Source of the DNA: Chthoniobacter flavus
GTDB taxonomy: Bacteria; Verrucomicrobiota; Verrucomicrobiia; Chthoniobacterales; JACTMZ01
Assembly (NCBI GenBank): GCA_945871065.1
Contig: CAMBUL010000022.1
Span: forward strand, 1-35,931
Length of the DNA: 35,931 nt
Direction: 5' to 3'
Shown here: positions 26,650 through 28,903 of the stretch, in pieces
Layout: each line of letters opens with the position of its first letter
Numbering within the stretch: position 1 is the stretch's first letter
The notes under the pieces: model-generated
What the model saw: the letters and a program-made list of their open reading frames with translations, nothing else
Database searches by the model: none
What the model was told of the DNA's origin: nothing
Position numbers and translations under genes: made by a program

Positions 26650-26686
26650 GCCCCCTCCGCCGGCAGAGGCTGGGGATTTATTTTTT
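26650..26686 (+). terminator. Probable rho-independent terminator of rpiA
   Basis: CCCCCTC (26651-26657) can pair with GAGGCTGGGG (26666-26675) through a stem with a small bulge around an 8-base loop. ATTTATTTTTT follows at once. It begins 8 bases after the rpiA stop and overlaps the last codons of the convergent phosphatase gene. Confidence 0.6.
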
Positions 26687-27361
26687 CCCGTCCCCCCAGA
26701 ATTTGGACAACCGCCCGCCCGGCACCGGCGGAATGGCCAAGCCGTCAGCCGCATAGTGCGCGACATCGTTGTACAAGGTGAGCCGCGCCTCCATGGCATC
26801 GCGGAAATCAAGGATAGTCAGCGAGGCCGGATTCAAATCGAGATGGTCACGATACCGCCGCGGATCGAATCCGAGGATCGCCCCGAGGAGCAAACGAATC
26901 GTCGCCTTGTGCGAAACGACACAAATCATTTCGCCAGCATGCTCGCCCACCGCATGGAGCAAGGCCGGCATGGCCCGTGCGGCCACGGCCAACCCGGTCT
27001 CCCCGCCATCCGGGGCGAAGTTGTAGGGGTCGGACTCCCATTTCAGATACATGTCGCCGAACTTCGTCTCGGCCTCCCGCCGGGTGAGTCCCTCCCACAC
27101 CCCGTGGTTGATCTCGAGAAAACCGGCCACGGGTTGCACCGGCAAATCGTGCGGCTTGGCCAGAATCCGCGCGGTCTCCATCGTCCGGTCCAAAGGCGAG
27201 GCATAACATGCCGCGATCGGTTGATCCGCCAAGCGCTTCGCCAACGCGGCCGCCTGCTGCCGGCCGACATCGCTCAGTTCCACATTCGTGGCCCCCGCGA
27301 ACCGGTCTTCCGCGGAAAGCACGGTGGCCCCGTGACGGACCAAAAACACCCGTGTCTTCAT
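26678..27361 (-). CDS. Histidine phosphatase family protein (phosphoglycerate-mutase-like)
   Basis: 227 aa. The catalytic RHG is Arg9-His10-Gly11 in VFLVRHGATVLSAEDRF, followed by LSDVGRQQAAALAKRL (29-44). The second Arg (59) is in YASPLDRTMETA. The acid/base Glu is in LEINHGVWEGL (82-92), and the second His (151) is in VVSHKATIRLLLGAIL. This is a complete active site of the cofactor-independent dPGM/SixA/CobC-like branch 1. The substrate is unknown: alpha-ribazole phosphatase (CobC), sugar phosphatase or others are possible. ATG 27361 has GAGAGG just upstream. It converges on rpiA and diverges from nrdR. Confidence 0.9.
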   Translation of the reverse strand: MKTRVFLVRHGATVLSAEDRFAGATNVELSDVGRQQAAALAKRLADQPIAACYASPLDRTMETARILAKPHDLPVQPVAGFLEINHGVWEGLTRREAETKFGDMYLKWESDPYNFAPDGGETGLAVAARAMPALLHAVGEHAGEMICVVSHKATIRLLLGAILGFDPRRYRDHLDLNPASLTILDFRDAMEARLTLYNDVAHYAADGLAIPPVPGGRLSKFWGDGKK

Positions 27362-27415: not shown

Positions 27416-27445
27416 TTGACACCACAACCTATTGTGTTGTTTGCT
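27416..27445 (+). promoter_or_regulatory. nrdR promoter with NrdR-box-like operator
   Basis: TTGACA (27416-27421), an 18-base spacer and TTTGCT (27440-27445) form a promoter with a perfect -35 and weak -10. The spacer holds an inverted repeat: ACACCACAA (27419-27427), four bases, TTGTGTTGT (27432-27440), 8 of 9 pairs matching. Its central 16 bases match the published NrdR-box consensus acaCwAtATaTwGtgt at 13 of 16 positions (consensus from memory). The position between -35 and -10 suits repression. Confidence 0.5.
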
Positions 27446-27468
27446 CCGGCCAGTCAGGTAAAACCACT

Positions 27469-27984
27469 ATGCGTTGCCCCCGTTGCGGAGACATGCGTGA
27501 TCGCGTCATCGACTCGCGGTTGATTCAGGATGGCGAGCGGATCCGTCGGCGCCGCCAGTGCCTCGCCTGCGCCACCCGCTACACGACCTACGAAACCATC
27601 GAGCAGATCGAATTGCGCGTCCTCAAGCGGGGCGGGCGGATCGAACCATTCCACCGCTACAAATTGGTCAGCAGTCTTTCCAAGGCCTGCGAGAAACGCC
27701 CGATCAAGTTGGAAATCCTTGAGCGCCTCGTCGACGAAATCGTCACCGAGCTTGGCGTCGAAACCGGACGAGAAGTGCCGAGCCGCCTGATCGGCCTGCG
27801 CGCCATGGAAAAACTCCAAACCATTGATCCCGTAGCCTACGTGCGCTTCGCCTCGATCTACCGGCAATTCCAGGAAGCCGGCGAATTCGTCGACGAAGTC
27901 GAACAAATGAAAAAACGCACCCCGCGGCGGGCCGACCAACCCGAACTCTTCACCGCGCCGGCCAAAGCTCCTGCCACCGCCTGA
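27469..27984 (+). CDS. nrdR: Transcriptional repressor NrdR
   Basis: Nucleotide-sensing repressor of ribonucleotide reductase genes. 171 aa. An N-terminal zinc ribbon starts MRCPRCGDMRDRVIDSRLIQ with Cys3, Cys6, Cys31 and Cys34. RIRRRRQCLACATRYTTYE holds the second Cys pair and the basic DNA-contact residues. The ATP-cone domain (about 50-135) has VLKRGGRIEPFHRYKLVSSL and DPVAYVRFASIYRQF. A C-terminal tail of about 25 residues is extra. No nrd genes are in the window. The gene starts an operon with an unknown gene (23-base gap) and a HIT protein, and has an NrdR-box-like site in its own promoter. Confidence 0.97.
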   Translation: MRCPRCGDMRDRVIDSRLIQDGERIRRRRQCLACATRYTTYETIEQIELRVLKRGGRIEPFHRYKLVSSLSKACEKRPIKLEILERLVDEIVTELGVETGREVPSRLIGLRAMEKLQTIDPVAYVRFASIYRQFQEAGEFVDEVEQMKKRTPRRADQPELFTAPAKAPATA

Positions 27985-28007: not shown

Positions 28008-28568
28008 ATGATCGCTTTCGCCGACAATCTTCCGCTCGTCCGACTCGCCGACCGGCGTGCCGTCAAATACGAGCGCGTCTGGCTCGAGCGTGCCGTGGCC
28101 GAGGCCGCGGAGGGTGCGGGATACATCCGTTGGTGGCTCGCCCCGCACGTGGCCGAGAGCGTGACGGCCTACCTTGAACGCGAATTCGAAGAAAACGTCA
28201 TCGCCAGCCAGTGCCTGCGCACCCTCGTCTCCAGCGTGCTCCAAGTGATCGGCTACCCCGAAATCGCCCGCGGCTTCCAGCTTCGCGAACCACCCGTGCG
28301 CATCTCCCTCGCCGCGCTGGCCGAGTCCGCCGGTGCCGGGTACGAACTCGCTTTCTTCCACGAACTCGACCTCACCCTGCACCGCGTCCTCGCCTCCCGC
28401 ACCTCCCGCATCGAATTCTGCGACCTCGCCGCCTGCGTCAAACGTCTCCGCCGCGCGCGCAGCTGGCGCAAGGACTGCGCCGCGCTGCGCAATGAAATCG
28501 TCGCGCATGTCCGCGGGCAGGCCGTGCGCCTCCGCCGCAAACGCGGGGTGGAATTGGAGCTGTCATGA
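28008..28568 (+). CDS. Unknown protein with an ATP-cone-like helical layout (186 aa)
   Basis: I do not recognise a named family. Residues 18-92 (AVKYERVWLERAVAEAAEGA, then WWLAPHVAESVTAYLEREFE, NVIASQCLRTLVSSVLQVIG, YPEIARGF) show the spacing of an ATP-cone: a short strand start, helix, helix with V-x3-L, and a helix of the type L-x2-V-x2-V-L-x2-x-G-Y-x-E-I-A. The rest (about 93-186) is helical, with RIEFCDLAACVKRLRRARSW and a strongly basic end (RGQAVRLRRKRG). There is no signal peptide or membrane helix. It sits 23 bases after nrdR and overlaps the HIT gene by ATGA. An accessory nucleotide-sensing role is inference from position and pattern only. Confidence 0.65.
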   Translation: MIAFADNLPLVRLADRRAVKYERVWLERAVAEAAEGAGYIRWWLAPHVAESVTAYLEREFEENVIASQCLRTLVSSVLQVIGYPEIARGFQLREPPVRISLAALAESAGAGYELAFFHELDLTLHRVLASRTSRIEFCDLAACVKRLRRARSWRKDCAALRNEIVAHVRGQAVRLRRKRGVELELS

Positions 28569-28903
28569 CCCTCTTTGAACGCATCGCGGCCGGGGAGATC
28601 CCGGCCGACATCGTGCGCAACGACGACCAAGTGCTCGCCATCCGCGATATCAACCCGCAGGCCCCGGTCCACATCCTGGTCATCCCGCAACGGGTCATCC
28701 CACGCATCGGCGAAGCCCGGCAAAGCGACAGCGAACTCCTCGGCCGCCTCCTCCTCGCCGCCCGTGACATCGCCAAAGAACAGGGTCTGGACCAAACCGG
28801 TTACCGCCTCGTCATCAACCACGGCCCCCACGCCGGCGAAAGCGTTCCCCATCTCCACATTCACCTCCTCGGCGGACGCCCCCTTGACTGGCCACCGGGC
28901 TGA
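28565..28903 (+). CDS. HIT-family nucleotide phosphoramidase/hydrolase (Hint-like)
   Basis: 112 aa, the usual Hint size. TLFERIAAGEIPADIVRNDD (2-21) is the standard N-terminal block. DINPQAPVHILVIPQRVIP (28-46) is the central strand pair. YRLVINHGPHAGESVPHLHI followed by HLLGGR (80-105) contains the histidine triad His96-x-His98-x-His100. Hint proteins hydrolyse nucleoside phosphoramidates such as AMP-lysine or AMP-NH2. ATG 28565 overlaps the stop of the unknown gene (ATGA). It converges on hemB, 41 bases away. Confidence 0.96.
   Translation: MTLFERIAAGEIPADIVRNDDQVLAIRDINPQAPVHILVIPQRVIPRIGEARQSDSELLGRLLLAARDIAKEQGLDQTGYRLVINHGPHAGESVPHLHIHLLGGRPLDWPPG

Follow-up and report, generated by a model that had tools for sequence, protein, structure and literature searches.

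A predicted tandem NrdR operator at the nrdR gene of Chthoniobacter flavus, with its second box over the start codon

Results

Organization of the nrdR locus

We analyzed a stretch of 35,931 nucleotides (hereafter, the window), which is contig C22 of an assembly of Chthoniobacter flavus comprising 2,529,837 bases in 120 contigs, with an estimated completeness of ~95%. The features considered here are the following.

26678..27361, minus strand: histidine-phosphatase-family gene, divergent, sharing its intergenic region with nrdR
27416..27421, plus strand: -35-like element TTGACA, read directly
27422..27437, plus strand: NrdR box 1, CCACAACCTATTGTGT, matching the consensus at 13 of 16 positions; key bases C27425 and G27434, nine apart
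27438..27463, plus strand: spacer between the boxes, 26 bp, containing a weak -10, TTTGCT
27464..27479, plus strand: putative NrdR box 2, CCACTATGCGTTGCCC, matching the consensus at 9 of 16 positions and at 6 of 6 core positions; key bases C27467 and G27476
27469..27984, plus strand: nrdR, 171 amino acids, with Zn-ribbon and ATP-cone domains
28008..28568, plus strand: ORF2, 186 amino acids, 23 bases after nrdR
28565..28903, plus strand: HIT-family gene, overlapping ORF2 by 4 bases

The product of nrdR scored 173.7 bits against TIGR00244 (cut-off, 124.65) and was the single copy found in the assembly. It carries D15 and R17, named in a passage of PMC9110341 as NrdR residues close to DNA bases. 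In one relative (locus L032 of genome G176), the best NrdR match was to a divergent NrdR-like gene at a contig edge, which starts with GTG and has no accepted box. Two NrdR matches each were also found in G031, G162, and G166.

A 107-bp intergenic region separates nrdR from the histidine-phosphatase gene, and the two genes are similarly close in L004 and L005. The preliminary description of this DNA had placed a palindrome between the -35 and the -10 elements of the nrdR promoter. The -35 half of that claim stands: TTGACA is clear beside the palindrome, and TTGAC was found 6 to 8 bases ahead of the corresponding site in 57 of 83 related regions (exactly 6 in 55 of them). The assumed -10 is weak, the best hexamer at a spacing of 16 to 18 from the -35 being TTTGCT (27440-27445), with 3 of 6 matches.

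Downstream, ORF2 adjoined nrdR in 39 of 40 loci, and the remaining one, L032, stops at a contig edge. The HIT gene was found in 33 of the 40; it was absent from L013, L016, and L023 despite at least 1.2 kb of downstream sequence. An ORF2 profile matched 98 of 141 genomes of the class. Gene order was compared in 32 hand-picked class genomes, 26 with ORF2 and 6 without, and in all 26 of the former ORF2 immediately followed nrdR, in the same orientation. Because the nrdR-ORF2-HIT string is tightly packed and recurs in relatives, it is plausible that ORF2 and HIT are cotranscribed with nrdR under NrdR control. The earlier suggestion that both genes belong to the dNTP regulon is thus plausible from gene order.

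A conserved NrdR box upstream of nrdR

The core CACAA-CCTA-TTGTG lies at 27423-27436 within a 22-base inverted repeat (27419-27440) in which 8 of 9 outer pairs match. On rereading, the palindrome, its coordinates, its pairing, and its 13 of 16 matches to the NrdR-box consensus were all as first described. The consensus used, ACACWATATATWGTGT, from which box 1 differs at three positions, is quoted in PMC4009431 as acaCwAtATaTwGtg. Box 1 was the sole site within three mismatches of this consensus in the whole assembly, and the string TTGAC-N1..3-CACAA-N4-TTGTG likewise occurred once.

We collected nrdR upstream regions from 90 of the 176 genomes of the order with an nrdR match, namely the 30 best matches, the members of the same genus, and others hand-picked to cover genera. 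Short regions were excluded (G086, locus L117, from the 90 and G010 from the 89 scored), as was L112, whose coordinates were those of nrdJ. A site like box 1 was accepted in 83 of the 89 regions, which represent 35 genera and 11 families; these counts, like all counts across relatives given here, reflect shared ancestry and are not independent events. No box 1 was accepted in the other six (G003, G123, G089, G176, G165, and G125). In an alignment of the window with nine relatives, the positions TTGACAC-ACAA-C--TTGTG were invariant, whereas most upstream positions were variable.

With a matrix trained on the nrdR sites, box 1 outscored every other single site in the window (20.5, as opposed to 11.3 for the next), although it is itself one of the 83 sites in the matrix that scores it. 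None of 2,000 dinucleotide shuffles of its 136-bp surroundings reached this score. The original observation is confirmed, and by its sequence and conservation we take the palindrome at 27422-27437 to be a genuine NrdR box.

A putative second box in phase with the first

Two boxes an integer number of helical turns apart are described for NrdR in passages of PMC12051234 and PMC4009431, and NrdR tetramers loaded with ATP and dATP are reported to need both, a lone box not being bound (PMC12051234). For this reason, it matters whether box 1 has a partner. It had been described as a single box; a candidate second box was found in phase with it at 27464-27479, covering the nrdR start codon and codons 2 to 4. 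The distance from box to box is 42 bp, or four turns. In both boxes, a C and a G stand nine bases apart (C27425/G27434 and C27467/G27476), the separation of the conserved G-C pairs reported for NrdR boxes (PMC9110341).

Consensus scoring of the nrdR upstream regions also placed a second site downstream of box 1, mostly over the start codon. We then trained a matrix solely on box 1, symmetrized it, and scanned 91 offsets, upstream and downstream of box 1, for a second site. The top-scoring second site lay at +42 in 40 of the 83 genomes, at +32 in 17, at +41 in 5, and at +43 in 3. When the scan was confined to the downstream side, the best partner fell at one of these four offsets in 67 of the 83, whereas 100 rounds of dinucleotide shuffling averaged 7.8 such regions and never exceeded 16; the set of offsets was chosen post hoc from the two-sided scan. 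The window pair scored 24.3, the best of any pair spaced 16 to 60 bp in the 35.9 kb, and the next pair elsewhere scored 13.5.

Sixteen of the 83 regions had no phased downstream partner. They included all seven genomes of family f5 (L017, L020, L027, L028, L038, L041, and L127), where box 1 stands at varying distances from the ATG. In family f4 (L143 and L144), the phased partner at nrdR was mostly missing too. The regions that lack a phased partner count against the paired-box reading.

In the nrdR regions of the class beyond the order, the best pair was spaced 31 to 33 or 41 to 43 bp in 19 of 30, a count made with no shuffle control, and the best pair was out of phase in the other 11. Thirteen of the 19 phased pairs lay wholly upstream of the ATG, five touched it, and one extended into the gene. 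Judging from these sites, many members of the class seem to have paired boxes at nrdR; a predicted box often overlaps the nrdR start codon within the order and occasionally does so elsewhere.

Box 2 follows box 1 rather than the start codon

Across the 67 phased pairs, the start of box 2 relative to the ATG was -5 in 39 genomes, -10 in 11, and -7 in 11, with the remaining six at -9, -11, -13, -15 (two), and -17. Spacing to box 1 was kept at three or four turns while this register varied. In family f9, the register of box 2 is the same as in the genus of the window, and it is box 1 that is shifted, by 10 bp or about one turn. Thus, box 2 keeps phase with box 1 and not with the ATG.

Of 90 nrdR genes, 63 had the motif CAC[AT] near the start; among four other genes, it was found at 2 of 108 starts (nrdJ, 1/29; ORF2, 0/39; HIT, 1/32; phosphatase, 0/8). 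In genomes with the -5 register, the last base of codon 2 is a T required by box 2. In the genus of the window, this codon was CGT in 11 of 11 genes, whereas CGT made up 44 of the 266 other arginine codons of nrdR. The corresponding values in f9 were 11 of 12 and 54 of 258, the lone exception being the divergent NrdR-like gene of G176. In f13, codon 2 was CTT in 9 of 11 genes, as opposed to 26 of 135 leucine codons elsewhere, and both exceptions lacked a phased pair. The f5 genes, with a box 1 but no phased partner, never had CGT as codon 2 (0/7, compared with 22/133 in the rest of the gene). Two f6 genomes in the -5 register (G041 and G157) go against the trend and use CGC at codon 2.

These data bear on the possibility that only box 1 functions, binding NrdR or another protein as a single palindrome, and that the match over the start codon is incidental. 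By itself, box 2 of the window is indeed weak: its score of 3.8 was reached by 18 of 2,000 shuffles at a phased offset and by 178 of 2,000 somewhere. Its right arm is partly coding sequence, with some positions fixed by the conserved Met-x-Cys of NrdR, and f5 has box 1 without a phased partner. An incidental match would nonetheless have to account for a number of phased partners far above that of any shuffle round, for a phase set by box 1 instead of the ATG, and for the near absence of the pattern from the starts of the four other genes. Together with the reported inability of NrdR to bind one box, these points make a lone functional box unlikely.

Paired boxes at reductase genes

Searches of the genome for PF02867 (the class I/II reductase family) and for NrdD (class III) returned one PF02867 match, a 1,050-residue NrdJ, and no NrdD match, making NrdJ the only ribonucleotide reductase found with these two families. 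ATP-cones above threshold were found in this genome only in NrdR.

If the box is an NrdR box, the preliminary description reasoned, the same motif should occur in pairs upstream of nrd genes; a clearly different box there, or loss of the palindrome in relatives, would speak against it. Neither refuting outcome was found. The nrdR-trained matrix found a pair upstream of nrdJ, CCCCCAGCGATTGTGG and CGCCCACATATAGTGG, 31 bp apart and aligned in eight genomes of the genus, with left arms that are degenerate. No other pair in that region or in the 6.2 kb around it scored higher, and none of 500 shuffles reached its score. Of 30 nrdJ loci returned, mostly from f1 and f9, one (L090) was dropped since no nrdJ start was found. 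In the other 29, the best pair was spaced 31 bp in 14, 32 bp in 9, and 27, 29, or 34 bp in 6; the 23 at 31 or 32 bp compare with an average of 1.4, and never more than 6, of 29 in shuffled regions. Upstream of nrdJ in f9 (for example, in L083, L085, and L098), TTATTCACA strings lie between the box pair and the ATG. These strings resemble DnaA boxes.

At class I loci (n = 20), a positive-scoring best pair at 31 or 32 bp was found at nrdA in seven of eight f13 and three of four f4 loci. The other eight loci (f7, f10, and f2), where start calls are doubtful, yielded no credible pair; their best pairs all scored negatively, two of them at a spacing of 31 or 32 bp all the same. Conservation at nrdR, the nrdJ pair in the same genome, and the nrdA pairs in two families together give good support to the reading first proposed, an NrdR box with probable autoregulation.

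The same results weigh on the idea that another regulator, or the divergent histidine-phosphatase gene, is what the palindrome serves. In favor of this idea, CACAA/TTGTG is a simple half-site, and in the window, L004, and L005 the site lies in a short intergenic region shared by both genes. Yet a matrix trained at nrdR finds phased pairs at nrdJ, and at nrdA in f13 and f4. In L006, L008, L009, and L010, moreover, at least 400 bases separate the divergent gene from nrdR, and the 1,500 bases examined in L011 revealed no such gene, while the box is still at nrdR; the sequence of L012 ends too soon to place that gene. We consider this explanation very improbable. Regulation of the divergent gene was rejected as the role of the box, which is kept at nrdR where that gene is distant; an effect of NrdR on the histidine-phosphatase gene is possible, though conservation does not imply one.

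A role of box 1 at the RNA level is disfavored by its position between the -35 and the expected -10. Least probable of all, to the point of being hardly credible, is that CAC[AT] acts as a translation signal ahead of the ATG and not as an operator: it does lie right at the start codon in most genomes, but the box start slides between -5 and -17, the starts of nrdJ, ORF2, HIT, and the phosphatase gene almost never carry it, and most phased pairs outside the order lie wholly upstream of the ATG.

Predicted folds of the ORF2 product

Against PF03477 (ATP-cone), ORF2 of the window scored 15 bits (E = 0.038), below the cut-off of 25.8; among ORF2 relatives, 19 of 33 matched at an E value of 0.1 or less, the best at 2.1e-5. 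A comparison of the ORF2 profile with that of NrdR was weak (30 columns; E = 0.0055; probability, 6.6), and a search of the profile against solved chains gave no convincing match (best, 0.22). The predicted structure had a mean pLDDT of 84. Residues 4-92 of the model superimposed on NrdR (9a6n_B) with a Z score of 11.3 and 2.2 Å over 83 residues, and on a second NrdR ATP-cone with a Z score of 10.8. With Foldseek, the best match of ORF2 was to an ATP-cone NrdB (E = 0.0018; probability, 1.00). The N-terminal half is predicted to adopt the ATP-cone fold.

Residues 94-186, predicted alone, had a pLDDT of 83. In a fold search with this domain, the top 13 of 50 rows were class III ribonucleotide reductases, with Z scores from 9.8 to 6.4, five of them at least 8.0; the best unrelated row scored 6.4. 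All but one of the class III rows named an organism, either Prevotella copri, Streptococcus thermophilus, or Thermotoga maritima, and the same interior segment was matched in each species. Foldseek returned no significant match for the C-terminal domain, PF13597 (NrdD) was listed for none of the 33 ORF2 sequences at an E value of 0.1 or less, and the profile comparison with NrdD was weak (E = 0.12; probability, 0.5). There is thus moderate structural support for a C-terminal half that folds like an interior segment of NrdD.

Since the sequence and profile matches are weak, what we say of ORF2 rests mainly on predicted folds. Each half resembles a known fold, that of the ATP-cone or of NrdD, while the protein falls below the Pfam cut-off of the one family and has no match to the other. 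By predicted fold, we class ORF2 as reductase-like rather than as an NrdD member.

Discussion

We consider it highly probable, from the sites, their phase, and their conservation, that the palindrome forms the first box of a tandem operator through which NrdR would negatively autoregulate nrdR-ORF2-HIT. Box 1 would occupy the sequence that separates the -35 of the nrdR promoter from its expected -10, and box 2 would lie over the start codon. When dATP is plentiful, an NrdR tetramer carrying ATP and dATP would bind the two boxes from the same side of the helix and exclude RNA polymerase, lowering transcription of nrdR, ORF2, and HIT in a negative-feedback loop. The same NrdR would repress nrdJ through its paired, 31-bp-spaced boxes.

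Binding is reported to be best with three turns between the boxes, four being tolerated, and NrdR of S. pneumoniae binds the 16-bp-spaced site of S. thermophilus 13 times more strongly than its own sites with spacers of 25 to 26 bp (PMC12051234). From these spacer data, we infer that the four-turn nrdR pair may be bound more weakly than the three-turn nrdJ pair, so that nrdJ would be turned off first.

This is a known kind of system in a variant layout. The 16-bp palindromes in the promoters of Streptomyces coelicolor nrdRJ, Escherichia coli nrdHIEF, and Listeria nrdDG, as described in passages of PMC9110341 and PMC12051234, likewise come in tandem, with C and G nine bases apart and boxes an integer number of turns apart. 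Here, by contrast, the predicted target is an operon that begins with nrdR and has no reductase gene, box 2 covers the start codon, and the boxes are 42 bp apart instead of the usual 31 to 32 bp. The 26-bp spacer does resemble those of the four-turn pairs of Streptococcus pneumoniae (25 to 26 bp). Those pairs belong to nrdHEF and nrdDG, whose ATG follows box 2 by 68 and 53 bp, respectively (PMC12051234), in contrast to a pair at nrdR with box 2 on the ATG.

Repressor boxes at the repressor's own gene are also familiar, as NrdR often controls its own gene (PMC9110341); by contrast, nrdR of P. aeruginosa is reported to be activated by NarL (PMC4409342). The passages of PMC9110341 on NrdR autocontrol contain no box across the nrdR start, and in the literature covered, which is partial, neither such a box nor ORF2 was found described.

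The role of ORF2 is a more tentative matter. It might be a shrunken, reductase-like second sensor under NrdR control, built from an ATP-cone and part of the class III reductase barrel, that joins NrdR or the reductase and tunes dNTP control. Its operon would then be shut off last, owing to the four-turn spacing of the box on the start codon. We put this forward as possible but somewhat doubtful.

A seemingly single NrdR box could thus be workable, its partner hidden over the start codon, where searches confined to upstream sequence may miss it. One genome apparently carries both a three-turn pair, at nrdJ, and a four-turn pair, at nrdR, for one repressor. Their coexistence would provide a natural test of the helix-phase rule and of a shut-off order set by spacing. 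As a conserved neighbor of nrdR with a reductase-like predicted fold, ORF2 is a candidate for a new component of dNTP control.
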